Assembly (NCBI RefSeq): GCF_026676115.1
Contig: NZ_JAPONB010000012.1
Span: 1 to 64,000 of the forward strand
Source of the DNA: Salinimicrobium sp. TH3
GTDB taxonomy: Bacteria; Bacteroidota; Bacteroidia; Flavobacteriales; Flavobacteriaceae
Reading direction: 5' to 3'
DNA length: 64,000 bases
Shown here: positions 8,303 through 27,314 of the stretch, piece by piece
Layout: each line of letters begins with the position of its first letter
How positions within the stretch are numbered: position 1 is the stretch's first letter
Notes under the pieces: generated by a model
The model's input: only the letters and a program-made list of their open reading frames with translations
Databases searched by the model: none
What the model was told of the DNA's origin: nothing
Program-made: the position numbers and the translations under genes

Positions 8303-9490
8303 CTATTCAGTAATAGTGATAGGTGTAACAACAATTCCGTCGTCATCCATAAGAGGTAAGTCAAGACCATTAACTCCGTCAAATTCATATACCATTTCTA
8401 CTCCGGTATCATTATGTAACATTACCCAAACTTTATCTCCTACTTCGACATTTGCATCTTCTGTAAAAGTTATTTCTACACTTGGGTTATCACCGGCTTC
8501 AACATAGACAGGTACAGAAATGATCTCAGGCACCATTGGTCCCGATCCGTCCACATTTGAAGCGTGCACTACCACATACCCATCCATATCAACGAAGATA
8601 TTATCTACGGTGATGGTGTTGTCAACAAGAGCCTGATCCTCTACATCAATCGTACCACTCATTGCGGCTGTAGTTACATCAGTAATAGTAATAGAGGTCA
8701 TTACGATATTCTCACCATCCATAACAGGAAGGTCTAAACCATTAACTCCATCAAATTCATACACTTGTTCTTCCCCGGTATCATTGTGAAGCATAATCCA
8801 TAAAACATCACCAGCTTCAACATTAGCATCGTCTTTTAAAGGCACACCTACATTTTCATATTCCCCTGCTTCCAAATAAACTGGTTGAGAAATAATTTGC
8901 GGTACCATTGGACCGTTACCGGCTTCATTTGATGCATGAATTACAACATATCCATCCTGCTCAAGCTTAATAGACTCAACATTAACTACGCCGTTCACAA
9001 GATCCTGTTCATTTGCAGTTACTGCATTAGCTAAAGACACCATAAAAGATTCAGTCACGATATCTCCGGACTCATCTGTAATAGGAGCATCTAGTCCATT
9101 GGTTCCGTTAAATTCATAAGTTCCAATTACTCCATCATCTGTATGAAGCATTACCCAAAGGGTTTCACCATCTTCTACCTCTTCTCCATCTTTAAGTTCG
9201 ATAACAACATCGGAGGTGGTATTTTCCTCTACCATTTTAGGTACAGAAATAATTTCGGGTACCATGGGAGCACCATTATTATCGCGGTGGATCACAACCC
9301 ATCCAGGATTACTCATACTAACGGCATTGATAGTCAACATTCCATCCTCTACCATTTCATCACTATCTACTACTATACTACCTGTAGGAAGGAGAACAGG
9401 ATTATCATCATCATCGTCACTACATGATACTAAAGCAAGACTCAGAATCATCGGCATCATTAAAAGGTAAACTTTCTTTAATCTGATCAT
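8303..9490 (-). CDS. Surface lipoprotein with three DUF7282-like repeats
   Basis: Lipoprotein of 395 residues. The signal peptide ends in LVSC (Cys23) followed by SDDDDD, an acidic stretch like the lipoprotein export signal that sends Bacteroidota lipoproteins to the cell surface. Three tandem units follow, at roughly residues 37-145, 147-262 and 264-395. Each contains a GxVVIH...PMVPxIISxPVY core, an LKDxxxVExGDxLWVMLHxDTG strand pair, and a YEFDGVNGLDxP ending. The units resemble DUF7282-type beta-sandwich modules seen in archaeal and bacterial surface proteins. The whole protein is strongly acidic. No operon partner or enzymatic motif is seen, so a surface structural or binding role is only inference. 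Confidence 0.75.
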   Translation of the reverse strand: MIRLKKVYLLMMPMILSLALVSCSDDDDDNPVLLPTGSIVVDSDEMVEDGMLTINAVSMSNPGWVVIHRDNNGAPMVPEIISVPKMVEENTTSDVVIELKDGEEVEDGETLWVMLHTDDGVIGTYEFNGTNGLDAPITDESGDIVTESFMVSLANAVTANEQDLVNGVVNVESIKLEQDGYVVIHASNEAGNGPMVPQIISQPVYLEAGEYENVGVPLKDDANVEAGDVLWIMLHNDTGEEQVYEFDGVNGLDLPVMDGENIVMTSITITDVTTAAMSGTIDVEDQALVDNTITVDNIFVDMDGYVVVHASNVDGSGPMVPEIISVPVYVEAGDNPSVEITFTEDANVEVGDKVWVMLHNDTGVEMVYEFDGVNGLDLPLMDDDGIVVTPITITE

Positions 9491-12461: not shown

Positions 12462-13355
12462 ATGAACATATTACAGGTCAGCGCCCCAAAATCAGGTAGT
12501 TTCTGGCTTAACACCGTTCTAAAGAAAACTCTGGAAAGAGCCGGAGAAGATATTTCCTATTTCATCAAAACACGACCCGAATATCAAATTCTGAAGCATA
12601 AAAAACTCAGCTTTAAAGATCAGGCGGGAACAGATATGCTGGATATTGAAGGCGACGGAGTATTTTTTAGAGTGAGTTCGTTGCTCAAGGAGCCGGTTCC
12701 CAATATTGCAGATTATTCAAAAAAAGCTACCCTGGCCTGGACGCATTCCACCTGGTGCCAAAAAACGCCAGAAGTTTTTACCTTTTTTGACAGGAGAGTT
12801 TGTATTGTGAGAGATCCACGAGATACGGCACTTTCGGCTGCTAAATTTGCTTTCACACCATATATGCAGGAGCATTACCCCTCACCTTATAAGTCAGTTG
12901 AGGAATTCTTTTCTGCGGAATATGAAAACCTGCTGGAACAGTGGGTCTGGTTATACGGAAATTACCTGCTTCACTCCAAAGATCTGAAGCTGCATTTTGT
13001 TTTTTATGAGAACCTGCTAAAGTCTTTTCCAAAGGAATATGATTCCTTGCTGAAATACCTGGAATTGGAACTTCCAGCTCAGGAAAAACAGAAAATTGAA
13101 TCGGAAGTCAGCTTTTCAAGTATGAAAGAAGAGAGTCCCCGGCATTTACGCAAGGGTAAAAGCCGCAAGTGGGTTGATCAACTTTCAATTGAAGAGATAG
13201 AGAAGGCATCGATAAAGGCCGGGGCTTTGATGAGAATTTTTGGATACCCACTCACGCCGGGGGAAGGAGATAAACTTCCTGCCATTCCACGTGAGATACC
13301 AAAAAAGGAATTGCAGTCCATCCTTGAAAAAATTGATTGGAAAAAGCTTTATTAA
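12462..13355 (+). CDS. Sulfotransferase domain protein
   Basis: Protein of 297 residues. The N-terminal VSAPKSGSFWLNTVL (residues 6-20) is the PAPS 5'-phosphosulfate-binding loop of cytosolic-type sulfotransferases, and VRDPRDTALSAAKF near residue 122 is the 3'-phosphate-binding segment. A C-terminal RKGKSRKW-type stretch also fits PAPS binding. It would transfer sulfate from PAPS to an alcohol or amine acceptor that cannot be predicted. No PAPS synthesis genes lie nearby. The gene sits on the plus strand shortly before the arsenosugar cluster but is separated from it by a small membrane protein gene and a promoter. Confidence 0.8.
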   Translation: MNILQVSAPKSGSFWLNTVLKKTLERAGEDISYFIKTRPEYQILKHKKLSFKDQAGTDMLDIEGDGVFFRVSSLLKEPVPNIADYSKKATLAWTHSTWCQKTPEVFTFFDRRVCIVRDPRDTALSAAKFAFTPYMQEHYPSPYKSVEEFFSAEYENLLEQWVWLYGNYLLHSKDLKLHFVFYENLLKSFPKEYDSLLKYLELELPAQEKQKIESEVSFSSMKEESPRHLRKGKSRKWVDQLSIEEIEKASIKAGALMRIFGYPLTPGEGDKLPAIPREIPKKELQSILEKIDWKKLY

Positions 13356-13741: not shown

Positions 13742-14077
13742 ATGTCAAAAACATATTACGATCCCGCCGATCTTAAAAAGTTTGGGAAAATTTCGGAATG
13801 GGATGAAGAACTTGGCAGCAAGTTCTTTGATTATTATAATAGCGTATTCGAGGAAGGAGCACTAACAGCCCGTGAAAAATCCCTTATCGCCCTTGCAGTT
13901 TCCCACGTGGTGCAGTGTCCATATTGCATAGACGCATACACCAAAGACGGCCTGGAGCGGGGAATAGAAAAAGAAGAAATGATGGAAGCCATCCACGTAG
14001 GCGCAGCTATAAAAGGCGGTGCAACGCTGGTCCATGGAGTCCAAATGATGAACAAGTACAACAAGTTGTCCATGTGA
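13742..14077 (+). CDS. Arsenosugar-associated AhpD/carboxymuconolactone decarboxylase-like protein
   Basis: Protein of 111 residues in the alkylhydroperoxidase AhpD-like fold. The redox pair Cys59-x-x-Cys62 (QCPYCIDAYTKD) sits in the LTAREKSLIALAVSHVVQ context typical of this fold, and an MHVGAAIKGGA-type helix follows. The N-terminus YYDPADLKKFG and the neighbouring ArsS identify the subfamily annotated as arsenosugar biosynthesis-associated peroxidase-like. Its precise reaction is unknown; a thiol-redox role on arsenic intermediates or in keeping ArsS reduced is plausible. It is the first gene of the cluster and ends with TGA at 14075, which I read as a true stop. Confidence 0.85.
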   Translation: MSKTYYDPADLKKFGKISEWDEELGSKFFDYYNSVFEEGALTAREKSLIALAVSHVVQCPYCIDAYTKDGLERGIEKEEMMEAIHVGAAIKGGATLVHGVQMMNKYNKLSM

Positions 14078-14199
14078 GCAGATCCAGGGAAGCCGGAACG
14101 GCTGACGTAGGAGTCGCTCATCCCGACAAAGGAGGGATCTCAAGTAAAGCCGTTGCATGCAACGGCTCAAGAGCCTTATCTTCCACAATAATCTAATAC
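14078..14199 (+). promoter_or_regulatory. Structured spacer between the AhpD-like gene and arsS
   Basis: This 122-nt spacer is packed with inverted repeats: AGCCG-GAA-CGGCT (14091-14103), ATCCC...GGGAT around 14118-14137, a perfect 20-base palindrome centred at 14157/14158 (14148-14167, core GTTGCATGCAAC), and GGCTC-AA-GAGCC (14164-14175). The last two overlap and are mutually exclusive, which could act as an attenuator or a processing site. The CATCCCGACAAAGGAGGGATCTC part resembles dispersed flavobacterial repeats, so a mobile-repeat origin is the main alternative. Confidence 0.45.
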
Positions 14200-15255
14200 A
14201 TGCAAAAAAAATCTCTATCAGCAAGAAAAAACAACCTCTCCAATCCTGCCGAACAGCTAAAATACCTTAGCAATGGCATTTTTGGGGCAGGGGAATTACC
14301 GCTGTTCCAGGATAAGGCAGAGAAGACAGGAGCATTTCCTTTAAAGCCTAAAAAGCTGGAGATCCTACAGATCAACCTGGGGTATATGTGTAACCAGGTG
14401 TGTTCGCATTGCCATGTGGATGCAGGACCCGACCGAAAGGAGATCATGACCCGGGAAACAATGCAGCTCTGCCTGGATGTGATAAAAAAATCTGAGGCAC
14501 ATACTCTGGACCTTACCGGCGGTGCACCCGAAATGAATCCCAATTTCAGGTGGTTCGTAGAAGAAGCCTCCAAAGCGGGGATCAGGGATTTTATAGTTCG
14601 CTCCAACCTTACCATTATTGTGGCAAATAAGAAATATTATGACCTGCCACAATTCTTTAAAAAGCATAATATTCATGTCGTATCTTCTCTGCCTTTCTAT
14701 AAGCGGGAGAAAACCGATCGTCAACGCGGTAGCGGGGTGTTTGATAAGTCAATTGAAGCTCTTAAGATGCTGAATGCAGCAGGATATGGCAAAAAGGACA
14801 GCGGACTAAAGTTAGACTTGGTCTACAATCCCGCGGGAGCCTTCCTGCCAACCAACCAACAAGCTATGGAACGGGATTTTAAAAAGGCTTTAAAACAGGA
14901 CTTTGATATAGATTTCAACGAACTCTTTTGTATCACCAATTTACCTATTAGCAGATTCCTGGAGTACCTTATAGCGTCCGAAAATTATGAGGACTATATG
15001 ACCGCTTTGGTAGAAGCTTTCAATCCTGCTGCCTTTCAAAACGTAATGTGTACCAACACCCTATCTGTAAGCTGGGACGGCTGGCTGTACGACTGTGATT
15101 TTAACCAGATGCTAAGTTTAAAGGTAGATTCAAAAAGTCAGCACTTAAAAGATTTTGAACCTCAACTGCTGCAAAAAAGAGAAATACGCACCTCACAACA
15201 CTGCTATGGCTGTACGGCCGGTGCGGGTAGTAGTTGCCAGGGAAGCGTGATTTAA
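14200..15255 (+). CDS. arsS: Arsenosugar biosynthesis radical SAM protein ArsS
   Basis: Radical SAM enzyme of 351 residues. The cluster-binding motif is Cys64-x3-Cys68-x2-Cys71 (CNQVCSHC). The C-terminal Cys-rich domain carries CDFNQM and HCYGCTAGAGSSCQG (Cys335, 338, 346), the signature of the rSAM/Cys-rich family now called ArsS. Homologues can carry selenocysteine in this family; here all positions are Cys or Ala and no in-frame TGA occurs. Known ArsS joins the 5'-deoxyadenosyl group of SAM to dimethylated arsenic, giving 5'-dimethylarsinoyl-5'-deoxyadenosine. It is immediately followed, with one base between, by the glycosyltransferase gene. Confidence 0.9.
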   Translation: MQKKSLSARKNNLSNPAEQLKYLSNGIFGAGELPLFQDKAEKTGAFPLKPKKLEILQINLGYMCNQVCSHCHVDAGPDRKEIMTRETMQLCLDVIKKSEAHTLDLTGGAPEMNPNFRWFVEEASKAGIRDFIVRSNLTIIVANKKYYDLPQFFKKHNIHVVSSLPFYKREKTDRQRGSGVFDKSIEALKMLNAAGYGKKDSGLKLDLVYNPAGAFLPTNQQAMERDFKKALKQDFDIDFNELFCITNLPISRFLEYLIASENYEDYMTALVEAFNPAAFQNVMCTNTLSVSWDGWLYDCDFNQMLSLKVDSKSQHLKDFEPQLLQKREIRTSQHCYGCTAGAGSSCQGSVI

Positions 15256-15256
15256 T

Positions 15257-15946
15257 ATGAGAAAAGAATCTTCCACAGGTGGGGAATTGCTCCTCATCTT
15301 TACCCGAAATCCTGAGTTAGGAAAAGTAAAGAAACGATTGGCTGCAGGCATAGGAAATATGGCAGCTTTGAAGATCTATAAACATCTATTGCAGCATACT
15401 GTTGAGATCACCAAAAACCTGCAGGTAGAAAAATGGGTATTTTATTCCGAAGAAATCCCGGACAAGGATATCTGGGAGAAAAAATACTTCAGTAAAAAAC
15501 TGCAGCAGGGAAATGAACTGGGAGAGCGAATGGAGAATGCTTTCCGCAGCGGCTTTGAAGCCGGCTTCAGCAGTATCATCATAATTGGCAGCGATCTATA
15601 CGACCTTTCAGAAGAAGATCTGAAAAAGGCATTTTTGGCACTTAAAGATTCTGAAGCTGTCATAGGGCCTGCCACAGATGGGGGATACTATTTATTAGGG
15701 ATGAAATCCTTAACTTCACGGGTCTTTAAAAACAAGAACTGGGGCAGCAATCTGGTACTTGAAGCCACCCTAAAAGACCTCAAAGGATATAAAATAACAC
15801 AGCTGGAGGCGCGGAATGATATTGACCGGCTTGAAGACATGAGGCCCCACCGGGAGCTAATGAAAATATTGAAAAAACAGAGGAATTATGAAGAAGATGC
15901 AATTTTTATTAATATTAATGATTACAGCTACTATTTTTGGCTGTAA
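15257..15946 (+). CDS. TIGR04282-type arsenosugar glycosyltransferase
   Basis: GT-A fold nucleotidyl/glycosyl transferase-like protein of 229 residues. The N-terminus LLLIFTRNPELGKVKKRLA, the IIGSDLYDLSEEDLKKAF segment and the VIGPATDGGYYLLGMK core match the TIGR04282 family, which co-occurs with ArsS. In an arsenosugar pathway it could attach the arsenoribose to an aglycone or handle a sugar phosphate; the reaction is not established. Its last 19 codons overlap the start of the msrB-like gene by 59 nt, an unusually long but readable overlap. Confidence 0.85.
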   Translation: MRKESSTGGELLLIFTRNPELGKVKKRLAAGIGNMAALKIYKHLLQHTVEITKNLQVEKWVFYSEEIPDKDIWEKKYFSKKLQQGNELGERMENAFRSGFEAGFSSIIIIGSDLYDLSEEDLKKAFLALKDSEAVIGPATDGGYYLLGMKSLTSRVFKNKNWGSNLVLEATLKDLKGYKITQLEARNDIDRLEDMRPHRELMKILKKQRNYEEDAIFININDYSYYFWL

Positions 15947-16451
15947 GGAAGAGCAGAAGGAAATAAATGCTGGCTCTGTAATGACCCAGGCCGAAGAAGT
16001 AGCTGTTCAAACCCAAGAAGTGAATGATCCTGTCAAAGCAGATACCATTGAGGTAGGAAATGTCACAAGAACAAAAGAGGAATGGAAGGAAAAACTTAGT
16101 CCCGAGGAATATCACATTTTGAGGGAAGCAGGCACAGAACCAGCTTTTAGAAATCAGTTTTACGACAATAAAAAAGAGGGAATTTATTACTGTGGCGGTT
16201 GTAGTCTACCGCTGTACAGTTCGAACACCAAATTTGATTCTGGTACAGGTTGGCCCAGCTTTTATGCTCCTATAGATCCAAAACTTGTAAAGAGGAAAAT
16301 GGACCGCCGTTACGGCATGGAGCGGGTAGAAGTTGTTTGCGCACAATGTGATTCCCATCTGGGACACATTTTTCCTTATGAAGGAGTACCTACAGAGGAG
16401 CGGCATTGCTTGAATTCATTGGCGCTCGATTTTAAACAAACAGATATTTAA
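15888..16451 (+). CDS. msrB: Lipoprotein methionine-(R)-sulfoxide reductase MsrB
   Basis: Protein of 187 residues with a lipoprotein signal (TIFGC, Cys19), a 45-residue linker, and a complete MsrB domain. Zinc ligands are Cys102/Cys105 and Cys151/Cys154, the substrate segment GTGWPSF is at 119-125, and the catalytic Cys174 is in ERHCLNS. It reduces methionine-R-sulfoxide, here in the periplasm or envelope. An AGAGGA purine run lies just before the ATG, which decides this start inside the upstream gene. Its place inside the arsenosugar cluster may reflect oxidative damage by arsenic or a reductase role on an oxidised As or S species; both are inference. Confidence 0.9.
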   Translation: MKKMQFLLILMITATIFGCKEEQKEINAGSVMTQAEEVAVQTQEVNDPVKADTIEVGNVTRTKEEWKEKLSPEEYHILREAGTEPAFRNQFYDNKKEGIYYCGGCSLPLYSSNTKFDSGTGWPSFYAPIDPKLVKRKMDRRYGMERVEVVCAQCDSHLGHIFPYEGVPTEERHCLNSLALDFKQTDI

Positions 16452-16461
16452 AAAATAATCA

Positions 16462-17292
16462 ATGCTTAAAGATTTAGAACACACTACAGAGTTTCTTGAG
16501 GCCAGGGGCTTTGACAAACCCGAAATTGGGATCATACTGGGCACCGGACTGGGAAAACTTATTGATGAACTGGAAGTTATTTCTGAAGTTAGTTACAATC
16601 ACATCCCGGGTTTCCCTACAGCTACAGTAGAATTTCATAGAGGAAAGCTCATCTTTGGGAAACTTGATGACAAAAAAGTAGTGGTAATGCAGGGTCGCTT
16701 TCATATTTATGAAGGTTACTCCCTTTGGGACGTCACCTTTCCTGTTCGGGTGATGAAACGCCTTGGAATTAAAAAACTCCTCATCTCAAACGCTGCAGGT
16801 TCTCTTAATCCAGACTTCAAAAAAGGAGAGATCATGCTTATTGACGACCATATAAACTTACAGGGAGGATCCCCTTTAGCTTTTAGAGGAGTGGAACAAT
16901 TGGGAACAAGGTTTACAGATATGAGTGCTCCCTACGATCAAGAAAGTGGTCGCATCCTGCAGGAGATCGCAAAAGAGAACGGTTTTCCGCTGCATAAAGG
17001 AGTCTATGTTTCGGTTGTTGGACCGCAGCTGGAAACACGGGCAGAATATAGATATTTGAGAACCATTGGTGGAGATGCAGTTGGGATGAGTACGGTGCCG
17101 GAAGTCATTGTTGCCAACCATTTAAAGATTCCTATTGCAGCAGTCTCTGTATTGACCGATGAAGGCAATCCCGATGATCTAAAACCAGTAAATATCCAGG
17201 ATATCATTGAAACTGCCGGGAAGGCAGAGCCTCAAATGATCACCCTTTTTAGAGAACTTATTAAACGAATAGAGCTTAAACCGGCAGAATAA
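16462..17292 (+). CDS. punA: Purine nucleoside phosphorylase
   Basis: Trimeric-type PNP of 276 residues: GIILGTGLGKL (23-33), phosphate-site His and Arg residues around SNAAGS (109-114), Glu191 and Met209 (VGMSTVPE). The position matching human Asn243 is Asp233 (VLTDEGNP). In human PNP, Asn-to-Asp at this site lets the enzyme accept adenosine, so this enzyme may act on 6-aminopurines. In the cluster it would cleave adenine from dimethylarsinoyl-deoxyadenosine and leave the arsenoribose 1-phosphate. That fits the context but is not proven; ordinary purine salvage is the alternative. The stop overlaps the next start by one base (TAATG). Confidence 0.9.
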   Translation: MLKDLEHTTEFLEARGFDKPEIGIILGTGLGKLIDELEVISEVSYNHIPGFPTATVEFHRGKLIFGKLDDKKVVVMQGRFHIYEGYSLWDVTFPVRVMKRLGIKKLLISNAAGSLNPDFKKGEIMLIDDHINLQGGSPLAFRGVEQLGTRFTDMSAPYDQESGRILQEIAKENGFPLHKGVYVSVVGPQLETRAEYRYLRTIGGDAVGMSTVPEVIVANHLKIPIAAVSVLTDEGNPDDLKPVNIQDIIETAGKAEPQMITLFRELIKRIELKPAE

Positions 17293-18590
17293 TGTCATCA
17301 ACAGAACATGTGGTCATCATTGGAAACGGCGTGGCCGGCATCACTGCCGCACGTCATATTCGCCGCATTTCCAATAAAAAGATCACGGTGATCTCTGCGG
17401 AAAGTGATTATTTCTTTTCCCGCACCGCCTTAATGTACGTGTACATGGGCCACATGAAATGGGAGCACCTCAAGCCTTACGAAGACTGGTTTTGGGAGGA
17501 GAATCGAATTGAGCTGAAGAAGGCTTATGTCGAAAAAATAGAACCCGCCTCAAAAATGCTCTTTTTGAAAGGTGAAGAGAAAATGTCTTATGACAAGCTC
17601 ATCCTTGCGACCGGCTCTGTCCCAAGATTTCTGGGCTGGGATGGGCAAGAACTCAAAGGAGTACAGGGACTGGTCTCCAAGCAGGACCTGGAACTTTTAG
17701 AGGATAATACCCGAAATTGCAAAAGCGCGGTAATAGTTGGTGGAGGACTTATAGGTGTGGAACTGGCCGAAATGCTGCACACGCGAAATATTCCGGTGAC
17801 CATGCTCATCAGGGAAAAAGCATCTTGGCAGAATGTTCTGCCGCTTCAAGATGCTGAATTCATTTCCCGGCATATCCAGAGCCAGGGAATTGTTTTAAAA
17901 CATGAAACCGAACTAAAGAAGATCAATGGCACAAATGGAAGAGTAAGTTCTGTAAACACCTCTTCGGGAGAGGAGATCAATTGCAATCTTCTGGGTGTCT
18001 CGGTAGGTGTGAAGCCAAATATCACATTTTTGAAAGGAACAGAAATAGAAACCGATATGGGAATTCTGGTGAATCCCCATCTGCAAACGAACATTCCCGA
18101 CGTGTACGCCATTGGAGACTGTGCGCAGCACCGGGAGCCACAAAACGGTAGAAAAGATATTGAAGCGGTATGGTATACTGCCCGAATGATGGGAGAAACT
18201 GTGGCGCAAACCATCTGTGGTCAAACTTTTAAATACAAACCCGGTCACTGGTTCAACAGCGCGAAGTTTTTCAATATCGAATTTCAGACCTATGGACTTG
18301 TGAATGCAGAACCCGGAGAAGATGAGAAGCATTTTCACTGGGAAAATAAGGAGGGTGAGAAGGCGATCACTATTGCCTTTGATCCTGCAACTTCTAAATT
18401 TCTTGGTATTAATACTTTTGGAATTAGAATGCGACATGAAGTATTTGACCGCTGGCTTACTCAACAACGGGACCTGGAGTTCATTTTAAGGAACTTTCGG
18501 GAAGCCAATTTTGACCCCGAATTCTACGATCGCCACGAGAAGGAGATTTTTAGTAGTTTTAAGGATCAATTAGCGAACTCCCAAACCTAA
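17292..18590 (+). CDS. FAD/NAD(P)-dependent oxidoreductase
   Basis: Pyridine-nucleotide-disulfide oxidoreductase-like protein of 432 residues. The FAD motif GNGVAG is at 11-16, an NAD(P) motif GGGLIG at 150-155, and the FAD-closing YAIGDCA near 272. There is no CxxxxC redox disulfide, so it resembles rubredoxin/ferredoxin reductases and the nitrite reductase flavin domain. With the polyferredoxin gene next to it, it could pass NAD(P)H electrons to a low-potential carrier, for instance for ArsS. Its TAA stop codon (18588-18590) lies inside the left arm of a hairpin repeat, so the repeat defines the C-terminus of the protein. Confidence 0.85.
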   Translation: MSSTEHVVIIGNGVAGITAARHIRRISNKKITVISAESDYFFSRTALMYVYMGHMKWEHLKPYEDWFWEENRIELKKAYVEKIEPASKMLFLKGEEKMSYDKLILATGSVPRFLGWDGQELKGVQGLVSKQDLELLEDNTRNCKSAVIVGGGLIGVELAEMLHTRNIPVTMLIREKASWQNVLPLQDAEFISRHIQSQGIVLKHETELKKINGTNGRVSSVNTSSGEEINCNLLGVSVGVKPNITFLKGTEIETDMGILVNPHLQTNIPDVYAIGDCAQHREPQNGRKDIEAVWYTARMMGETVAQTICGQTFKYKPGHWFNSAKFFNIEFQTYGLVNAEPGEDEKHFHWENKEGEKAITIAFDPATSKFLGINTFGIRMRHEVFDRWLTQQRDLEFILRNFREANFDPEFYDRHEKEIFSSFKDQLANSQT

Positions 18591-18615
18591 CAGGTTTCGA
18601 AAACCTGTTAGGTTT
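18583..18615. repeat. Hairpin repeat copy 1 (AACCTAACAGGTTT family)
   Basis: Perfect inverted repeat with 15-base arms and a 3-base loop (CGA): 18583-18597 pairs with 18601-18615. A second copy with a CCA loop lies at 22409-22441. The left arm supplies the stop codon of the FAD oxidoreductase gene. It could form a strong RNA hairpin between that gene and the polyferredoxin gene. It ends in TTTT and may act as a weak terminator. Confidence 0.85.
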
Positions 18616-18628
18616 TAAACCCCTTGCA

Positions 18629-20227
18629 ATGTCCACACCTCAAAATAACATGTCTCTTTCGGGAGAAGCACCCGCAAAACTCTCCACTACTCAAAAGGTA
18701 GCCACGGGACTTGGCTGGACAGGACTTTTTATTCTTTTTCTTGCGCTGTTCAACCTGGAATTACCCTCAGCTTTTCTCTGGTCGGCTCTGGCACTCATTT
18801 CTGTGGGTGTGATCATATTTGCAAATGATCTTTACATGGGAAAATCGGCCGGAGTGAAAAACGACGGCATCTGGTTCAGGTCGATGACTGCCCGCGGCAT
18901 CCTCGCCTGGGGCACGGGGATAGTACTCACCATGTTCTATATAGTTTTATACTGGTTTCCACAATACCTTGGGCATAATCCAGAAGGCTCGAACACCGGA
19001 CTCATAGCACTTTTCGACCCGCTTAGCAGATTCATCAGCGGTCATGCAGCAAGTCAATGGTTTGTTTACGGAACTTTATATACCCTTGCCATTCTCGCTT
19101 TTGGCTACAAGTTCCTGCTAAAATACAGGCATAACAAATACGAAGTTTTGCGCACCTATTCGGTAATGTTCTTCCAGCTGGGTTTTGCATTTCTTATTCC
19201 CGAGATCCTCATGCGCCTTAATCAGCCGTATTTTAATCCGGTGAATATATGGCCGCTTAATTATGACCTTTTCGCGGGATATAAACTATCCGAATTCTTC
19301 TCCGCCGGAAATATAGGTTTGCTTATGCTCTTCTTCGGAATAGCCTCAATTTTTGTAATTACTCCTATTCTCACTTATTTCTACGGAAAAAGATGGTACT
19401 GCTCATGGGTTTGCGGCTGTGGCGGACTCGCTGAAACTGCCGGAGATCCTTACAGACATTTGTCTGACAAAAGCAGGGCTTCCTGGAAATTTGAGCGTTA
19501 CATCATCCACACAGTTTTAGTATTGGTAGTGATTATGACAATTGCCGTGGTATACTCCTTTCTAAATGAAAATCCGGAGCAGTTCTGGCTAGACAAGAAT
19601 GTTTTTCTTCTGGGATCGGCAGCTTTTCTGGTCCTGCTTTTTGGGCTTATCTGGATATTCAAAAGGCACAGGCTGGCAAGAGATGCCAAAAAAGGTGCAA
19701 TTATCTCCCTAAGCATCGTTCTGGCAATTATCGCTGCATTTTACTTCAGCGGAATGACCTATGGATATTTGCTAAGACAGTGGTACGGATTTTTAATTGG
19801 CGCAGCTTTTTCTGGAGTCATAGGAGTGGGCTTTTATCCCATTTTTGGAAACCGGGTATGGTGCCGTTTTGGTTGCCCTATGGCAGCAGTGTTGGGAATG
19901 CAGCAGCGGTTATTCTCGAAATTCAGGATCACCACAAATGGGGGGCAATGTATCTCCTGCGGAAACTGTTCCACCTATTGCGAAATGGGTATTGATGTGC
20001 GGGCATATGCTCAAAAAGGGGAAAACATAGTTCGCTCCAGTTGTGTTGGTTGCGGAATATGTAGTGCCGTTTGCCCCCGTGGAGTACTAAAATTAGAAAA
20101 TGGACCTTTGGATGGCAGGATCAACGGCGATGCCGTTTTGTTAGGAAATGATGTGGACCTCCTGGATTTAATTCAGCAACAGAAAAAAGTCACGCGGGAT
20201 CCAAAAAGTTCTCACTTCAATTCCTGA
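18629..20227 (+). CDS. Membrane 4Fe-4S polyferredoxin (NapH/CcoG-like)
   Basis: Integral membrane protein of 532 residues with about eight hydrophobic segments. Cysteine motifs near WYCSWVCGCGGLAE (about residue 256) and WCRFGCPMAA (about 412) resemble the NapH/NosR type. Two C-terminal ferredoxin clusters follow, CISCGNCSTYC and CVGCGICSAVC (about 443-490). Such proteins move electrons between quinol or ferredoxin pools across the membrane. It follows the FAD oxidoreductase with a 38-nt gap filled by the hairpin repeat. In this cluster it may deliver reducing power to arsenic chemistry. The electron partners are unknown. Confidence 0.82.
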   Translation: MSTPQNNMSLSGEAPAKLSTTQKVATGLGWTGLFILFLALFNLELPSAFLWSALALISVGVIIFANDLYMGKSAGVKNDGIWFRSMTARGILAWGTGIVLTMFYIVLYWFPQYLGHNPEGSNTGLIALFDPLSRFISGHAASQWFVYGTLYTLAILAFGYKFLLKYRHNKYEVLRTYSVMFFQLGFAFLIPEILMRLNQPYFNPVNIWPLNYDLFAGYKLSEFFSAGNIGLLMLFFGIASIFVITPILTYFYGKRWYCSWVCGCGGLAETAGDPYRHLSDKSRASWKFERYIIHTVLVLVVIMTIAVVYSFLNENPEQFWLDKNVFLLGSAAFLVLLFGLIWIFKRHRLARDAKKGAIISLSIVLAIIAAFYFSGMTYGYLLRQWYGFLIGAAFSGVIGVGFYPIFGNRVWCRFGCPMAAVLGMQQRLFSKFRITTNGGQCISCGNCSTYCEMGIDVRAYAQKGENIVRSSCVGCGICSAVCPRGVLKLENGPLDGRINGDAVLLGNDVDLLDLIQQQKKVTRDPKSSHFNS

Positions 20228-20258
20228 TTTTTCCCTTTGCTTTATTTTTCTTTGCGGA

Positions 20259-20948
20259 ATGCCTGACATAAAAGTCATTATTCCCGCATATAACGAGGCC
20301 AATTCGATTGGTCATGTGATAAAGGATATTCCTGAAAATGTGGATGAGGTAATTGTGGTGAGCAATAATTCCACCGATGCCACGGAAGCTAATGCCAAAA
20401 AAGCAGGAGCCACCGTTTTACAGGAGTCTCGAAAAGGTTATGGCTACGCCTGCCTAAAAGGAATGGATTACATCTCCCAACTTCCTGAAAAGCCGGAAAT
20501 TATCGTATTTTTAGATGGGGATTTCAGCGATTATCCTCAAGAACTGGAAAAGATCGTGGAACCAATCCTGCAGCGGGATGTAGACCTGGTCATTGGCGCC
20601 AGAGTAAAACGCTGGCGGGAAAAAGGCGCAATGACCTTCCCGCAGATCTTTGGGAACTGGCTTGCAACCAACCTGATGAAGTTGTTTTTCAACGCCCGGT
20701 TTACAGATCTTGGACCCTTCAGGGCCGTTAAGTATGAAAAGCTACTGGCGCTCAATATGGAAGATAAGACTTATGGCTGGACCGTGGAAATGCAGCTAAA
20801 GGCATTAAAAAAGAACTACAGCTATGAAGAAGTACCGGTACATTACCGTAACCGGATAGGAGTTTCCAAAGTTTCAGGTACCGTAAAAGGTGCATTCATG
20901 GCCGGAGTGAAGATCCTTACCTGGATCTTTAAATACAGTTTTAAATAA
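20259..20948 (+). CDS. GT2 glycosyltransferase, dolichyl-phosphate sugar synthase-like
   Basis: Cytoplasmic GT-A fold protein of 229 residues: KVIIPAYNEANSIGHVI at the N-terminus, the acidic motif FLDGDFSDYP near residue 88, and a LGPFRAVKYEKLLAL region with ETEV-like WTVEMQLKAL. This is the pattern of DPM1/polyprenyl-phosphate mannose or glucose synthases without membrane anchors. It would charge a polyprenyl phosphate with a sugar for use by a GT-C enzyme, and one is encoded two genes downstream. The stop is shared with the next start (TAATGG, one-base overlap). Confidence 0.85.
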   Translation: MPDIKVIIPAYNEANSIGHVIKDIPENVDEVIVVSNNSTDATEANAKKAGATVLQESRKGYGYACLKGMDYISQLPEKPEIIVFLDGDFSDYPQELEKIVEPILQRDVDLVIGARVKRWREKGAMTFPQIFGNWLATNLMKLFFNARFTDLGPFRAVKYEKLLALNMEDKTYGWTVEMQLKALKKNYSYEEVPVHYRNRIGVSKVSGTVKGAFMAGVKILTWIFKYSFK

Positions 20949-22453
20949 TGGAGTTAGCAATATTGATCCTATTTTCTTTATTGATGTTGGCCGTATTTCT
21001 TTACAGTCTTTCCCTTCTGCACCTGCTTATTAATTTCCGAAAAAGCCGATTTCAAAAAGATACCTCCCAAAAATGGGATTTTTCAGATCCTTCTCAAATC
21101 CCTTTTGTAACCATACAGCTGCCGCTCTTCAATGATAAACCTGTTGTGGAAAGGCTGCTTCGGAATATTGCCGAAATAGATTACCCTCACGATAAACTGG
21201 AAGTGCAGGTACTCGATGATTCCACAGATGATTCTGTAACCCTCACCTCACAACTTGTTTCAGAATTAAAATCTGAAGGTTTTCCTATTCAGCACATCAG
21301 CCGAAGTCACCGCAAAGGCTTTAAGGCCGGTGCACTCAAAGCCGGACTGGAAATAGCAAAGGGAGAATTTATTGCTGTTTTTGACTCCGATTTTTTACCT
21401 CAACCTGATTGGCTTAAAAAGACCATTCCCTACTTTAAAAACAAGAACCTTGGCGTAGTGCAGACCCGCTGGGGACATCTTAATAAAAACTATTCCTTAC
21501 TTACCAAACTGCAGGCATTCCTGCTCGATTATCACTTTATCCTGGAGCAAACCGGGCGCAACTTTGGTAAACATTTTATCAACTTCAACGGTACGGCAGG
21601 AGTCTGGCGCAAAAGCTGTATCCTGGACGCAGGAAATTGGGAAGGGGATACCCTCACCGAGGATCTTGACCTTAGTTACAGGGCGCAGTTAAAAGGCTGG
21701 GAATTTAAATACCTGAGAGAAGTTGAAACGCCGGCAGAACTACCAATCACCATTGCTGCTGCGCGTTCCCAACAGTTTAGGTGGAATAAAGGGGCGGCAG
21801 AAAACTTTCAGAAGAATTATAAAAAAGTTCTGACCAGTAAAAAAGTAAACTTTGGAACCCGCTTCCACAGCTTTTTCCATCTCCTGAACAGCAGCTTCTT
21901 TTTTGTGGTACTTTTAATGGGAATTCTAAGTATACCTGTGCTGTTTTTCCTGGACCACCCGGCCTACTCAAGTATTTTTACAGGAATGACCGTATTTATC
22001 TTAAGTCCTGTGATCTTCTTCATCACCTATTATGCAGCTTATAAAGAACTGCATCAAAAAGAGCGTTTTTCCTTTTTTAAATTTATCGGAATCTTTTTCA
22101 CCTTCTTTTCAATTGCCATGGGGCTTTCCCTGCACAATAGTATCGCAATTCTGGAGGGACACTTTGGAAAGAAAAGTGAGTTTATAAGAACCCCCAAGTT
22201 CAACCTCGGCAGTAAGTCTGGTGCAGACTTAAAGTCCCCGGTGAAAATCAATTTTCAATTGCTCCTCGAAATCCTGTTAATGCTGCTTTTTGCCTTCGGA
22301 ATTTTCTCTGCATTCAGGATCGGCACCTATAGTCTTCTGCCCTTTCACCTCATGATGTTCTTCGGATTTTCGTACGTTGTTCTGGCTTCTTTAAATATCG
22401 AAATTGGGAGACCTAACAGGTTTCCAAAACCTGTTAGGTCTATGGAAAAATGA
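20948..22453 (+). CDS. Membrane GT2 glycosyltransferase, cellulose synthase-like
   Basis: Processive-type GT2 protein of 501 residues: an N-terminal membrane helix (3-28), VTIQLPLFNDKPVVERLL, the DSD motif in VFDSDFLPQ near 146, TEDLDLSYRAQLKGW near 236, QQFRWNKGA near 276, and four C-terminal helices. It resembles ceramide/diacylglycerol glucosyltransferase and cellulose-synthase-like enzymes. The last codons before the stop are encoded by the second hairpin repeat (RPNRFPKPVRS), so the C-terminus has been remodelled by the insertion. The stop overlaps the next start by four bases (ATGA). It may glycosylate a lipid acceptor in the arsenosugar pathway, or it may be an independent glycolipid gene. 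Confidence 0.83.
   Translation: MELAILILFSLLMLAVFLYSLSLLHLLINFRKSRFQKDTSQKWDFSDPSQIPFVTIQLPLFNDKPVVERLLRNIAEIDYPHDKLEVQVLDDSTDDSVTLTSQLVSELKSEGFPIQHISRSHRKGFKAGALKAGLEIAKGEFIAVFDSDFLPQPDWLKKTIPYFKNKNLGVVQTRWGHLNKNYSLLTKLQAFLLDYHFILEQTGRNFGKHFINFNGTAGVWRKSCILDAGNWEGDTLTEDLDLSYRAQLKGWEFKYLREVETPAELPITIAAARSQQFRWNKGAAENFQKNYKKVLTSKKVNFGTRFHSFFHLLNSSFFFVVLLMGILSIPVLFFLDHPAYSSIFTGMTVFILSPVIFFITYYAAYKELHQKERFSFFKFIGIFFTFFSIAMGLSLHNSIAILEGHFGKKSEFIRTPKFNLGSKSGADLKSPVKINFQLLLEILLMLLFAFGIFSAFRIGTYSLLPFHLMMFFGFSYVVLASLNIEIGRPNRFPKPVRSMEK
22409..22441. repeat. Hairpin repeat copy 2 (AACCTAACAGGTTT family)
   Basis: Inverted repeat with 15-base perfect arms and loop CCA: 22409-22423 pairs with 22427-22441. 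It sits within the 3' end of the GT2 gene and is translated in frame. It differs from copy 1 only in the outermost arm bases and the loop, so the two copies either moved recently or are maintained. Confidence 0.85.
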
Positions 22454-23814
22454 AAAAGTTCCTGCTCCTCTACAAGATCCCCCTTCTCATATTCCTTAGC
22501 TGCTGCGCCTTTTATTTTGCCTTCGCGTACAACCTGGAGAGGACCGACTTTTTTAAACTTTTAACCCTCTACGGCGGACTCTTCTTTCTAAGCTGGAAGT
22601 TCTTCAAAATGCAGAGGTACAATTTGAAAATACTTTTAGCTGCAGCAGTTATTTTTAGGTTGCTGTTTCTGTTTGCCGTTCCCAATTTGTCTCAGGATTT
22701 CTACAGGTTCATTTGGGACGGTAGATTATTACTGGAAGGAATCAATCCCTATTTAATGACTCCTGCTGAATATTTCGCCGCCGGGAATTTACCATTTTTG
22801 GGAGCACAAGAACTTTATGATGGGATGGGCAGTCTTAGCGCTGGGAATCCAACTAATTATCCACCGCTCAACCAGCTTTTCTTTGCACTGGCTGCCTTTC
22901 TCGGCGGAAAAAGCATCCTTGGCAGTGTCATCTGGCTACGAGTCTTCATCATCGCTGCCGATATCGGGATCTTCTATTTAGGAAGAAAAATTCTGAGGAA
23001 CCTCAACCTTCCTGAAAGCAATATCTTTCTGTATCTGCTTAATCCTCTTATCATCATCGAACTCACCGGAAATCTTCATTTTGAAGGGGTCATGCTGTTC
23101 TTTCTCCTGGCTGCACTCTATTTACTACAGTGTCAAAAATGGCTTTTTAGTGCCCTCTTCTTTTCCTGTTCTATTGCGGTGAAATTGATCCCGCTAATGT
23201 TTCTTCCACTCCTCTTCAGAAGGCTTGGCTGGAAAAGAGCTTTGGTATATTATGCAGCCACAGGTATAATCTTACTTCTCTTCTTCCTGCCGTTTCTTTC
23301 GGGTGTATTTGCAGAAAATTTCTTCAGCAGCATAAATCTCTGGTTTCAGAAGTTTGAGTTTAATGCGGGTTTTTATTACGTCATTAGATGGATAGGTTAT
23401 GAGGTTGAAGGATATAATATTATTAGCTATGCCGGACCTACACTGGCGGGTGTGGTGTTTGTCTCGATCCTCATTATGGCCATTTTAGAACGGAATCACA
23501 AAATGCGAGGTTTACTCACCAGTATGATGTTTGGAATGTTCATTTATTTGTCACTGGCCACTACAGTACATCCCTGGTACCTGGCCACTCCGTTGGTACT
23601 GTCTGTTTTTACCCGATACAAATTTGTGCATGTTTGGAGCCTGATGGTGGTGCTGAGCTATTTTGCATATTCTCAGGCTGGTTTTCAGGAGAATTTGTGG
23701 CTGGTAGCTGTGGAGTATGTGGTTGTGATTGGAATGATGGGATATGAGCTATTTTTTCAACCATCAGACACAAAATACCAGGAAATAAAAAGTGGCATGG
23801 AAAATTCGATATAA
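22450..23814 (+). CDS. GT-C membrane glycosyltransferase (GT87/mannosyltransferase-like)
   Basis: Polytopic membrane protein of 454 residues with about eleven hydrophobic segments. The SQDFYRFIWDGRLLLEGINPYL stretch after the third helix region, followed by NPTNYPPLNQ, is typical of GT-C transferases that use polyprenyl-phosphate sugars (GT87 and related mannosyltransferases). The catalytic Asp would lie in the first periplasmic loop. It probably acts on the outer face of the membrane with the sugar donor made by the DPM1-like protein at 20259. It is translationally coupled to the upstream GT2 (ATGA) and is the last gene of the block before a terminator. Confidence 0.82.
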   Translation: MKKFLLLYKIPLLIFLSCCAFYFAFAYNLERTDFFKLLTLYGGLFFLSWKFFKMQRYNLKILLAAAVIFRLLFLFAVPNLSQDFYRFIWDGRLLLEGINPYLMTPAEYFAAGNLPFLGAQELYDGMGSLSAGNPTNYPPLNQLFFALAAFLGGKSILGSVIWLRVFIIAADIGIFYLGRKILRNLNLPESNIFLYLLNPLIIIELTGNLHFEGVMLFFLLAALYLLQCQKWLFSALFFSCSIAVKLIPLMFLPLLFRRLGWKRALVYYAATGIILLLFFLPFLSGVFAENFFSSINLWFQKFEFNAGFYYVIRWIGYEVEGYNIISYAGPTLAGVVFVSILIMAILERNHKMRGLLTSMMFGMFIYLSLATTVHPWYLATPLVLSVFTRYKFVHVWSLMVVLSYFAYSQAGFQENLWLVAVEYVVVIGMMGYELFFQPSDTKYQEIKSGMENSI

Positions 23815-24018: not shown

Positions 24019-24990
24019 CTACCAACCAAGCAGATAAGCAAACACAAGCGGTGCCACAATAGTAGCATCACTTTCTATTACGAACTTCGGAGTATCTTTA
24101 TCCAATTTCCCCCAGGTAATCTTTTCATTAGGCACAGCACCCGAATAACTTCCGTAGCTGGTTGTAGAATCTGATATCTGGCAGAAATAGCTCCAGAAAG
24201 GAATATCATGCATTTCCATATCCTGATATAACATTGGTACAACACAAATAGGGAAATCACCGGCTATACCACCTCCAATTTGGAAGAATCCAACACCTTT
24301 ATCAGTGTTTTTGGTATACCAATCGGCGATAAAGCCCATATATTCTATTCCTGATTTCATGGTGCTTGCCTTCAATTCACCTTTCATTACGTAAGAAGCG
24401 AAAATGTTCCCCATGGTGCTGTCTTCCCAGCCCGGAACCACCATTGGCAGGTTCTTTTCGGCTGCAGCATACATCCAGGAATCTTTTAGATCGATCTCAT
24501 AGTATTCTTCCATCACTCCACTAAGCAACAGCTTATACATGTATTCATGCGGGAAATATCTCTCCCCTGCAGCTTCAGCATCTTTCCAGATCTTCACAAT
24601 ATGCTTCTGAATTCTTCGGAAAGCTTCTTCTTCAGGAATACAGGTATCTGTTACCCTGTTTAGACCACGCTCCAGCAGGTCCCACTCGTCCTGGGCAGTA
24701 AGGTCCCGATAGTGAGGCACACGTTCATAATGTGAATGTGCCACAAGGTTCATCACATCCTCTTCCAGGTTTGCACCTGTACAGGATATGAACTGCACCT
24801 TATCCTGACGGATCATTTCAGCAAAACTTTTTCCTATCTCGGCAGTACTCATCGCACCTGCCAGGGTAACAAGCATTTTGTTCCCCTTGTCAAGTTGATC
24901 CTGATATCCTTTTGCAGCATCTACAAGAGCCGCTGAGTTAAAATGTTTAAAATGTTTTTCTATAAATTCCGTAACCGGTCCTTTACTCAT
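24019..24990 (-). CDS. Deoxyhypusine synthase-like protein, possible homospermidine synthase
   Basis: Protein of 323 residues of the DHS family. The nucleophile lysine is kept: Lys295 in TWGKL corresponds to Lys329 in the SWGKI motif of human DHS. NAD-binding stretches are present (GAMSTAEIGKSFAEMI, FISCTGANLEEDV). Bacteria have no eIF5A, and bacterial DHS homologues include homospermidine synthases that move an aminobutyl group between polyamines. Flavobacteria are known for homospermidine. Here it overlaps the agmatinase gene by eight bases and lies two genes below arginine decarboxylase, so a polyamine product made from putrescine is the most economical reading. A role in protein modification cannot be excluded. 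Confidence 0.8.
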   Translation of the reverse strand: MSKGPVTEFIEKHFKHFNSAALVDAAKGYQDQLDKGNKMLVTLAGAMSTAEIGKSFAEMIRQDKVQFISCTGANLEEDVMNLVAHSHYERVPHYRDLTAQDEWDLLERGLNRVTDTCIPEEEAFRRIQKHIVKIWKDAEAAGERYFPHEYMYKLLLSGVMEEYYEIDLKDSWMYAAAEKNLPMVVPGWEDSTMGNIFASYVMKGELKASTMKSGIEYMGFIADWYTKNTDKGVGFFQIGGGIAGDFPICVVPMLYQDMEMHDIPFWSYFCQISDSTTSYGSYSGAVPNEKITWGKLDKDTPKFVIESDATIVAPLVFAYLLGW

Positions 24991-25858
24991 CGTCTTCGTC
25001 TTCGTTATGATTTAAATATTTGAATTTGTAGCTCAACATCTTATAGTAAAGTTTAGCCGCAAGAAAATCTGATGATCTTTCATTCTCGTTTGGATTAAGC
25101 TCTACGATGTCAAACCCTACCACGTTCTTCTTTTTGAACATTAGCTTTAAAAATTCCAGTGTCTCATACCAGAACATTCCGCCGGGCTCGGGAGTACCTG
25201 TAGATGGAAGGATCGAAGGATCGAAGGCATCAAGATCGATGGTAATAAAAACGTTCGGCGTCATTTGCCCAATAGCATCATCCATCCAGTCTTCATAAAG
25301 ATCATGTGCCCAGTATACCTGATTCTCGTCCATATGATCCAATTCTGAAATATCCATAGAACGTATCCCTACCTGAAGGAGGTTGGTCTTCTTACTGGCT
25401 TCATGTACCGCACAGGCATGGTTGCAGGTTGAACCTTCATACTCGGGACGAAGGTCTGCATGTGCATCAATTTGAACAACGGTAAGATCTTCAAAGCTTT
25501 CATTAAAAGCACGAATAGTCCCTATAGAAACTGAATGCTCACCGCCAAAAATGGTAACAAATTTGTCCTGCTTGATATAGTTTTTTACGGTCTTATGAAC
25601 CGCTTCCACCATTTTTTCCGGAGAAGAATCCTCGGTCACCGGTGGTGCGAGATAGACTCCTTTTTTATAGACTTCTGTACGGGTTTCGATATCAAAAAGC
25701 TCCATGTTTTCTGAAGCTTCGAGAAAAGCGTCGGGTCCTTTATCGGCTCCCTTACCCCAGGTACTTGTCCCATCATAGGGAACCGGGATCAAAACTACTT
25801 TTGCGTCATCTAAACGTGCATACTTGTCCGGAATGCCGGCGTAATTCTTTTTGTTCAT
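24983..25858 (-). CDS. speB: Agmatinase
   Basis: Ureohydrolase of 291 residues. The manganese ligands are all present: His108 in GGEHS, Asp131/His133/Asp135 in DAHADLR, and Asp208/Asp210 in TIDLDAFDP. It hydrolyses agmatine to putrescine and urea, the second step from arginine. The ureohydrolase core and length are typical; the acidic C-terminal tail (HNEDEDDE) is a lineage detail. It lies between arginine decarboxylase upstream and the DHS-like gene downstream, with an eight-base overlap to the latter. Confidence 0.92.
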   Translation of the reverse strand: MNKKNYAGIPDKYARLDDAKVVLIPVPYDGTSTWGKGADKGPDAFLEASENMELFDIETRTEVYKKGVYLAPPVTEDSSPEKMVEAVHKTVKNYIKQDKFVTIFGGEHSVSIGTIRAFNESFEDLTVVQIDAHADLRPEYEGSTCNHACAVHEASKKTNLLQVGIRSMDISELDHMDENQVYWAHDLYEDWMDDAIGQMTPNVFITIDLDAFDPSILPSTGTPEPGGMFWYETLEFLKLMFKKKNVVGFDIVELNPNENERSSDFLAAKLYYKMLSYKFKYLNHNEDEDDE

Positions 25859-25916
25859 TTTATTAGCGATTGGTGTGTTCTAATTGCTTCAACTATAGAT
25901 TAAAAGTATAAAAATA

Positions 25917-27314
25917 TTATTTCTCGTAACCGAGTATTTTTAGAAAGTCGTGAGGTTCCTGTTGCTCGCTGAATAAGGTAGTTTCAAGATTTCCGTTCTC
26001 ATCTCTGTTAATTAAAATCTGTTTTGGCTGCGGAATCAAACAGTGCTGTAACCCTCCAAAACCACCAATGGTATCCTGATAAGCTCCAGTGTTAAAAAAC
26101 CCTATGTACAGGGGCTTGTCCCGCTTGTATTTAGGCAAGTAAATGGCGTTGGTATTCTGCTCGGAGTTGTAATAGTCATCACTGTCACAAGTTAGACCGC
26201 CAAGTAATACCCGCTCATACTCGTCATTCCAACGGTTCACCGCCAGCATAACAAATTTCTTGCTAATCGCCCAGGTATCGGGCAGGGTGGTAATGAAAGA
26301 TGAATTGATCATATTCCATTTCTCACGGTCATTCTGCTGTTTCTGATATAGAATTTCATAAATAGCACCCCCGCTTTCCCCTACAGTAAAGGACCCGAAT
26401 TCTGTAAAAATGTTCGGCACATCCACTTCGGCTTCATCACAGGCGATTTTGATCTGGTTCACGATCTCCTCCACCATATATTTATAATCATATTCGAAAT
26501 GAAGAGAGTTTTTCACTGGAAAACCACCACCAATATTAAGACTGTCAAGGGAAGGGCAAATCTTCTTTAAATTGATATATACCCGTAGACATTTCAACAA
26601 TTCATTCCAGTAATAGGCAGTATCGCGAATTCCGGTATTAATGAAAAAGTGTAGCATCTTCAGCTCCACCTGCTCATTGTCCTTGATCTGTTTGTTAAAG
26701 AAAGGAACAATATTTTTATAACCTATCCCCAGCCGGGAGGTGTAAAATTCAAATTTCGGCTCCTCTTCAGAAGCAATTCTTATCCCAATCTTGTACTTCC
26801 CGTCGATAGCTTCGGAAAGCAAATCGATCTCTTCATAATTATCAATTATGGGAATACAATTCTTGTGACCCCCGTTAATAAGGTTAGCAATATTGGTAAT
26901 ATAGCCGTTCCTTTTAAAACCGTTACAAATGACATAAGTGTCATTGGTGATCTTTCCTTTCTTCTTAAGGTTCTCAACAATATTTATATCTACTGAAGCT
27001 GATGTTTCAATATGAATATCATTCTTCAAAGCTTCATTAAGAACATGCTGAAAATGCGAGCTTTTTGTGCAATAGCAATAATTGTAACTGCCCTTATAAT
27101 CATGCTTTCTTAAAGCTTCGGCAAACCAATCTTTTGCTCTGTTAATATTTTGCGAGATCTTAGGCAGGTAGGTAAACTTTAAAGGCGCACCATACTCTTT
27201 TACAAGTTCCATAAGATCAATACCATGAAATTGCAGTTCGCCACTTTCAACAGTAAATTCTTCCTGGGGGAAATAATATGTCTGGTCGATTAAATCGCTG
27301 TACTTCGTATTCAA
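25917..27314 (-). CDS. speA: Arginine decarboxylase, short Bacteroidota type
   Basis: Fold-III PLP decarboxylase of 465 residues, shorter than the roughly 650-residue proteobacterial SpeA but usual for this phylum. The PLP lysine is Lys84 in CYCTKSSHF. The SLNIGGGFPVKN segment near 260 binds the phosphate. The C-terminal GFFNTGAYQDTIGGFGG stretch carries the expected active-site Tyr and Asp region. It converts arginine to agmatine and CO2 in the cytoplasm. It heads the speA-speB-DHS-like unit; the 58-nt gap to speB has no obvious terminator. Confidence 0.88.
   Translation of the reverse strand: MNTKYSDLIDQTYYFPQEEFTVESGELQFHGIDLMELVKEYGAPLKFTYLPKISQNINRAKDWFAEALRKHDYKGSYNYCYCTKSSHFQHVLNEALKNDIHIETSASVDINIVENLKKKGKITNDTYVICNGFKRNGYITNIANLINGGHKNCIPIIDNYEEIDLLSEAIDGKYKIGIRIASEEEPKFEFYTSRLGIGYKNIVPFFNKQIKDNEQVELKMLHFFINTGIRDTAYYWNELLKCLRVYINLKKICPSLDSLNIGGGFPVKNSLHFEYDYKYMVEEIVNQIKIACDEAEVDVPNIFTEFGSFTVGESGGAIYEILYQKQQNDREKWNMINSSFITTLPDTWAISKKFVMLAVNRWNDEYERVLLGGLTCDSDDYYNSEQNTNAIYLPKYKRDKPLYIGFFNTGAYQDTIGGFGGLQHCLIPQPKQILINRDENGNLETTLFSEQQEPHDFLKILGYEK

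Follow-up and report, generated by a model that had tools for sequence, protein, structure and literature searches.

In the genome of Salinimicrobium sp. TH3 (Flavobacteriaceae), ten genes on the + strand join an arsenosugar core around the radical SAM enzyme gene arsS to a pair of redox genes and, late in the run, to three genes for glycosyltransferases. The window, i.e. the whole stretch of DNA that was analysed, is 64,000 nucleotides long (positions 1 to 64,000 of NZ_JAPONB010000012.1, assembly GCF_026676115.1) and corresponds to contig C3; the genome comprises 3.69 Mb and is divided into 21 contigs. We put at about even the chances that the late genes, above all the one encoding a DPM1/AglJ-like GT2 glycosyltransferase (DPM), are functional partners in the arsenosugar locus and provide a route to lipid-linked arsenoribose. 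The evidence for this reading is gene presence, linkage and gene fusions; every pathway step after ArsS we infer. In the gene orders given below, FAD is the FAD oxidoreductase, PFD the polyferredoxin, CESA the cellulose-synthase-like GT2, GTC the GT-C transferase, PNP the purine nucleoside phosphorylase and x another open reading frame (ORF).

Linkage was examined in a family sample of 299 Flavobacteriaceae genomes and a phylum sample of 247 genomes. In the family, arsS scored over the cut-off in 215 genomes, a cut-off passed by Synechococcus elongatus alone among 14 control genomes, and a DPM-like gene was found in 229 at E 1e-70. Both genes occur in 210 genomes, arsS only in five (68-96% complete), DPM only in 19 and neither in 65 (p 5e-42; the co-occurrence p values ignore phylogeny, and the arsS/DPM cross-tabulations were counted by hand from tables). 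Among the matches listed, arsS could be placed in 127 genomes and DPM in 97 of these. DPM lies at most 40 kb from arsS in 72 of the 97, every time downstream and on the same strand; in the other 25 it is on another contig (18) or farther away (7). The first-pass annotation had set gene order across Flavobacteriaceae beforehand as its own test, and the late genes are indeed linked to arsS there. Among the genera that could be compared, the presence of arsS differs within five (g10, g14, g30, g42, g80), and the presence of DPM varies along with it in two of them.

The association extends beyond the family. The phylum sample gave 43 genomes with both genes, 61 with arsS alone, 19 with DPM alone and 124 with neither (p 7e-7), and after removal of the own family the corresponding counts were 31, 60, 16 and 113 (p 2e-4). 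Outside the class, arsS and DPM are linked in 5 of the 24 genomes holding both. In loci L210-L213, which come from distant families, DPM comes immediately after arsS, with spacings from an overlap of 4 bp to 24 bp apart, and in L214 it lies 3.4 kb upstream of arsS. The order in L210 is FAD-PFD-ahpD-arsS-DPM, while L211 and L212 carry a TIGR04283+TIGR04282 fusion, DUF547, ahpD, arsS and DPM. For this fusion, for the gene tallies given below and for the loci of named DPM genomes, genes were named by profiles built from the family loci with our own thresholds, and 10 proteins of this set were compared with NCBIfam models. Metagenome-assembled genomes (MAGs) of Syntrophaceae (L237) and Lentisphaerae (L265) encode fusions of DPM, TIGR04282 and TIGR04283 of 683 and 675 residues near ahpD-arsS, in which the DPM part is AglJ-like; ArsS and both TIGR models score over their cut-offs. 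L265 also holds a gene for a MIP channel, which passes its cut-off, one resembling arsM (187.6 bits, short of the cut-off of 263) and, near arsS and the fusion, a GT-C-like gene that is below curated cut-offs and scores 144 bits by our own profile. The joining of TIGR04282 to two GT2 domains fits a sequence in which a sugar is first activated and then transferred. Nearly complete sets of genes were seen in a Paludibacter MAG (L291, DUF547-ahpD-arsS-rhodanese-TIGR04282-x-PNP-FAD-PFD-x-x-DPM-CESA-GTC) and a Flavobacteriales MAG (L258, FAD-PFD-DPM-CESA-GTC-x-DUF547-arsS-TIGR04282-TIGR04283-PNP). TIGR04282 or TIGR04283 accompanies DPM in 27 of the 80 named DPM loci, with L252 and L224 over the NCBIfam cut-offs. 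The arsS-linked DPMs are spread over several branches of the DPM tree (11 changes by a quick method, at least three of them forced by the starred branches), and a shuffled mean of 17.6 changes indicates that the label is also clustered.

The chief rival explanation is an inherited neighbourhood, in which the product of the block FAD-PFD-DPM-CESA-GTC is a membrane glycan with no relation to arsenic and, in Flavobacteriaceae, the arsenosugar core is merely its neighbour; the two would have become one run in the window's genus when intervening genes were deleted. A bystander role was our first reading, based on arsS-free blocks and the conserved neighbourhood, and it lost first place after the distant adjacencies and fusions had been found; we now regard it as possible but less likely. 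Several observations weigh against partnership. L165, L167 and L171 hold the block without arsS, and so does L170, where ORFs have been inserted; GH113 precedes it and a peptide deformylase gene lies near it. In some of these arsS-free loci it is followed by a gene that weakly matches an acetyltransferase and by an ORF whose start by eye looks like argG. Opposite-strand genes, GH113 among them, divide arsS from DPM in 20 of the 27 family loci that reach DPM, and DPM is present in 19 of the 84 arsS-negative family genomes. TIGR04282-PNP-TIGR04283 is retained without nearby arsS or arsM in L166 and L169, and in six genomes where arsS is far off or on another contig, PNP-(arsM)-TIGR04283 stays beside the late block (L172, L175-L178, L181; TIGR04282 is in view in four of the six). 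Other Bacteroidia have DPM-CESA-GTC standing on its own: in 7 of 20 phylum loci (L190, L191, L194, L195, L200, L201, L202) the triple, or a pair of its genes, appears with no arsS in the fetched stretch. None of the seven genomes with both genes from other families of the class has arsS and DPM within 40 kb; in one of them they share a contig, 0.74 Mb apart. Among the 80 named DPM loci, many of which are cut by contig ends, arsS is found in the flanks of six (L215, L237, L258, L265, L271, L291), only L271 being from the window's family. Of the 30 genomes with named DPM loci, 18 have arsS over the cut-off and 12 do not, and eight of the latter have DPM beside TIGR04282/TIGR04283 or alone in distant phyla. 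Another family's arsS locus, L295 (G455), contains arsS, TIGR04282 and TIGR04283 without DPM; DPM was absent at E 1e-50 from the sampled arsS-positive members of that family, and a probable FAD oxidoreductase of 453 residues, judged from its N-terminus, is located ahead of arsS. Finally, CESA relatives are widespread (115 genomes of the phylum sample), PNP is found across the family (263 of 299 genomes at E 1e-70), and nothing matching TIGR04283 over its cut-off was found in the window genome.

What argues against a mere inherited neighbourhood is that DPM is the immediate downstream neighbour of arsS in four distant genomes, that it is fused to TIGR04282 and TIGR04283 near arsS in two phyla, that L210 combines the redox pair with arsS and DPM, and that 7 of the 27 family loci, in six genera, run from arsS to DPM with no opposite-strand gene. 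The claim of the first-pass annotation that the late genes belong to the pathway is accordingly supported in part: its refuting condition, a lack of linkage to arsS in relatives, did not come true for DPM, which far outside the family still neighbours arsS, TIGR04282 or TIGR04283 or is fused with them, but the claim is weakened by the existence of the block without arsS. Certainty also differs between the genes. DPM is the surest: it probably is a true partner in the arsenosugar pathway. For FAD, polyferredoxin and GT-C such a role is plausible. FAD-polyferredoxin abuts ahpD-arsS-DPM in L210, and in relatives the two genes are also paired. The case for the cellulose-synthase-like gene is the weakest; every locus in which it was seen near arsS contains DPM as well.

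In the ten-gene run, an arsenosugar locus that is widespread in Bacteroidota has been compacted, since relatives hold intervening genes, arsM and TIGR04283 that the window's genus has lost. The commonest order in the family is ahpD-arsS-rhodanese-TIGR04282-PNP-arsM-(fatty-acid hydroxylase)-DUF547-TIGR04283, followed by opposite-strand genes including GH113 and then by FAD-polyferredoxin-DPM-CESA-GT-C. Eighty family arsS loci of at most 20 kb were fetched; they are high scorers rather than a random choice, and they end 14 kb past arsS, by which late genes are under-counted. They contain ahpD (78), TIGR04282 (76), PNP (64), arsM (59), DUF547 (55), rhodanese (53), TIGR04283 (48), GH113 (38, always on the other strand) and fatty-acid hydroxylase (33), and of the late genes FAD (37), polyferredoxin (31), DPM (27), CESA (25) and GT-C (12). 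In the window's genus the opposite-strand genes between arsS and the late block are gone, like dedicated arsM and TIGR04283, neither of which is found over its cut-off in the three genomes of the genus or in G257. A second type of arsS locus, consisting of a divergent TIGR04282, ahpD, arsS and a TetR regulator, was found in L046, L051, L073, L081, L093, L101, L106 and L108, with neither PNP nor the late block in the fetched stretch. On a plasmid of Pseudanabaena galeata (L301), a gene annotated as mercuric reductase precedes arsM and arsS, which places another pyridine nucleotide oxidoreductase beside arsenosugar genes.

The run resembles the ArsM-ArsS arsenosugar pathway, in which a radical SAM enzyme adenosylates arsenic according to a review (PMC12159101), in that arsS and the AhpD-like and TIGR04282 genes are adjacent and ArsM is encoded in the genome. 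It differs in that PNP, the redox pair and the three late glycosyltransferase genes share the run, and in that neither TIGR04283 nor the arsenosugar-type ArsM (NF038099) was found over cut-off in the window genome (G000). A canonical ArsM is encoded there, unlinked to arsS (NF008823, 375.7 bits, cut-off 263). The arsenosugar-type ArsM is almost confined to arsS-positive family genomes (167/168). Seventeen arsS-positive family genomes have just a sub-cut-off match to it, which in the window genome is the canonical ArsM, and by subtraction 31 of the 215 have no ArsM match at E 1e-20 (this ArsM split, 167/168 and 17, 7 and 31, was also counted by hand from tables). Such losses could mean that the locus is decaying, with dedicated arsM, TIGR04283, DUF547 and rhodanese gone and AhpD, ArsS and PNP serving, for example, 5'-deoxyadenosine disposal or the use of environmental methylated arsenic. 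We consider this very improbable, as the canonical ArsM is present, the window's arsS shares 81-86% identity with the arsS genes of the two other genomes in the genus, and all ten reading frames are open.

For the TIGR04282 protein the family label of the first-pass annotation, glycosyltransferase, is doubtful. It is probably a nucleotidyltransferase of the CofC type, because its three-Asp motif aligns with CofC and corresponds to the metal motif of FbiD. The residues D113, D188 and D190 are invariant in 27/27 rows of one alignment and 18/18 of another. In FbiD the motif D116, D188, D190 is described as binding two Mg ions (PMC6450877). Homology to CofC is weak: the protein scores 24.6 bits with the Pfam model PF01983 (cut-off 22) and 31.2 bits with the curated TIGR03552, below the cut-off of 105, and the alignment of the three Asp with the CofC structure 2I5E has an E value of 0.099, a weakness that likewise tells against the proposed pathway. 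A further difference from CofC and FbiD is the neighbour: instead of F420 genes there is a phosphorylase, whose predicted product is a sugar phosphate. This arrangement suggests that TIGR04282 activates a sugar phosphate supplied by PNP.

In PNP, Asp and Ile stand at the positions which we take to be 243 and 257 of the human enzyme. PNP is similar to the MTAP-type adenine nucleoside phosphorylase in having Asp at 243 and a hydrophobic residue at 257. It differs in keeping Glu at 201, in its scores (342 bits to the PNP model vs 97 to MTAP) and in that genomes lacking arsS have these residues as well. All 65 arsS-linked PNPs (64 loci and the window) have the Asp and all have Ile or Val, but so do the enzymes of 3/3 genomes whose arsS lies elsewhere, and the pattern is also found in 9/9 further rows, six of them from arsS-negative genomes and one being the G217 enzyme again. 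These rows add to the points against partnership, and the residues were rejected as proof of co-adaptation with arsS, since arsS-unlinked and arsS-negative genomes have them too; they are only permissive. Glu201 is kept in the PNP studied here, whereas in an engineered human PNP acting on adenosine prodrugs, described in PMC2799393, both residues were changed.

The nearest profiles suggest that DPM is a polyprenyl-phosphate sugar synthase-like enzyme. Known algal arsenosugars carry glycerol aglycones, and an alternative would be a soluble transferase of the glucosyl-3-phosphoglycerate synthase (GpgS) type that places arsenoribose straight onto an acceptor of the glycerol type; its product would be the classical glycerol arsenosugar, with no polyprenyl carrier or export and with CESA and GT-C unrelated. 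GpgS indeed ranks first in a single-sequence PDB search, and the DPM-like protein has just 229 residues, about a bare GT2 catalytic domain. The family profile, however, puts dolichol-P-mannose synthase (5mlz) first with 53.3 bits over columns 4-211, with GpgS close behind at 51.6 bits over columns 5-117 only. Moreover, AglJ is the nearest NCBIfam model, and 47 of the 80 named DPM loci also contain a GT-C gene, in line with a donor linked to polyprenyl. We therefore think the soluble transferase improbable. The nearest profiles and the DPM-CESA-GTC gene pairing resemble DPM1/AglJ systems with GT-C transferases, from which the present case differs in that the AglJ cut-off is not reached and in the linkage or fusion to arsenosugar genes in places.

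The favoured pathway would start with dimethylarsenite made by the unlinked ArsM, to which ArsS would add the 5'-deoxyadenosyl group; the product of ArsS is dimethylarsinoyl-deoxyadenosine. Removal of adenine by PNP would give arsenoribose 1-phosphate, which could be converted by TIGR04282 to a nucleoside diphosphate sugar. From this the DPM-like GT2 would load arsenoribose on polyprenyl phosphate, and at the opposite face of the membrane the GT-C enzyme may pass it to an acceptor, either a lipid or a glycan. The FAD enzyme and the polyferredoxin could give electrons to the radical SAM or arsenic reduction steps. In a broader and distinctly tentative view, which we consider rather unlikely, DPM, TIGR04282 and TIGR04283 would form, together with GT-C and the redox pair, a widespread bacterial module that activates a 5-modified ribose, an unusual sugar, and places it on a polyprenyl carrier, leading to membrane-anchored or surface arsenoribose glycoconjugates where ArsS and ArsM are present and to another ribose derivative where ArsS is missing. 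In open-licence PMC papers, which miss most subscription journals, we found no paper naming a step after ArsS and no description of the conversion of the ArsS product to marine glycosides and lipids or of a lipid-linked organoarsenic sugar pathway.

The ten genes that the first-pass annotation had placed at 13742-23814 were all recovered as open frames on one strand (table below). The junctions are, in order, gaps of 122 bp (the longest) and 1 bp, an overlap of 59 bp, a gap of 10 bp, an overlap of 1 bp, gaps of 38 and 31 bp and overlaps of 1 and 4 bp. A consensus scan found no + strand terminator-like site in the intergenic gaps of the run, with counts near those of shuffled sequence: the 14 terminator-like and 16 promoter-like sites, vs 12.1 and 18.6 expected by shuffling, are uninformative. 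G+C is 0.42-0.44 at the run vs 0.38-0.44 across the window.

Genes of the ten-gene run, with window positions and the profile matches on which the putative assignments are based
Gene product	Position	Strand	Profile evidence
AhpD-like arsenosugar-associated protein	13742..14077	+	TIGR04169 196.4 bits, cut-off 120
ArsS, radical SAM enzyme	14200..15255	+	TIGR04167 447.5 bits, cut-off 300; PF12345
TIGR04282 / DUF2064, CofC-like, probably nucleotidyltransferase	15257..15946	+	TIGR04282 206.4 bits, cut-off 134
MsrB, lipoprotein-like start (by eye)	15888..16451	+	TIGR00357 153 bits, cut-off 113
Trimeric-type purine nucleoside phosphorylase (PNP)	16462..17292	+	NF006054 342.5 bits, cut-off 218
FAD/NAD(P) oxidoreductase, NirB-N-terminus-like	17292..18590	+	Pyr_redox_2 180.9 bits
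Membrane polyferredoxin, NapH-like	18629..20227	+	TIGR02163 52 bits, below cut-off 213; Fer4 domains
DPM1/AglJ-like GT2 (polyprenyl-phosphate sugar synthase-like)	20259..20948	+	AglJ model 127.6 bits, below cut-off 325
Cellulose-synthase-like processive GT2 (CelA/PgaC-like)	20948..22453	+	TIGR03030 114 bits, below cut-off; cellulose synthases lead the PDB matches
GT-C / GT87, MptB-like transferase	22450..23814	+	NF038066 43.2 bits, cut-off 40; PF09594 26.1 bits, cut-off 25

MsrB was matched in one of the 80 relatives' arsS loci, L041, which is from the same genus. Sulfated arsenosugars are known, and 386 bp upstream of ahpD the window contains a gene with a sulfotransferase domain (12462-13355, +; PF00685, 62 bits), which might encode a tailoring enzyme; among the loci compared it has matches solely in the two other genomes of the genus (81% and 62%). 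On the other strand, at 24019-27314 (-) and convergent with the GT-C gene, lies a deoxyhypusine synthase-like gene (PF01916), followed by genes that by eye are agmatinase-like and arginine-decarboxylase-like. Elsewhere in the window, the predicted protein of 8303-9490 (-) by eye seems to be built from about three modules that resemble each other, each some 110 residues long.

The adjacency of DPM and arsS and the fusion of DPM with TIGR04282 and TIGR04283 name concrete candidates for the missing steps after ArsS, and a possible order for them. Because arsS is over the cut-off in most of the family genomes sampled, flavobacteria could contribute arsenosugars or arsenolipids on a large scale.

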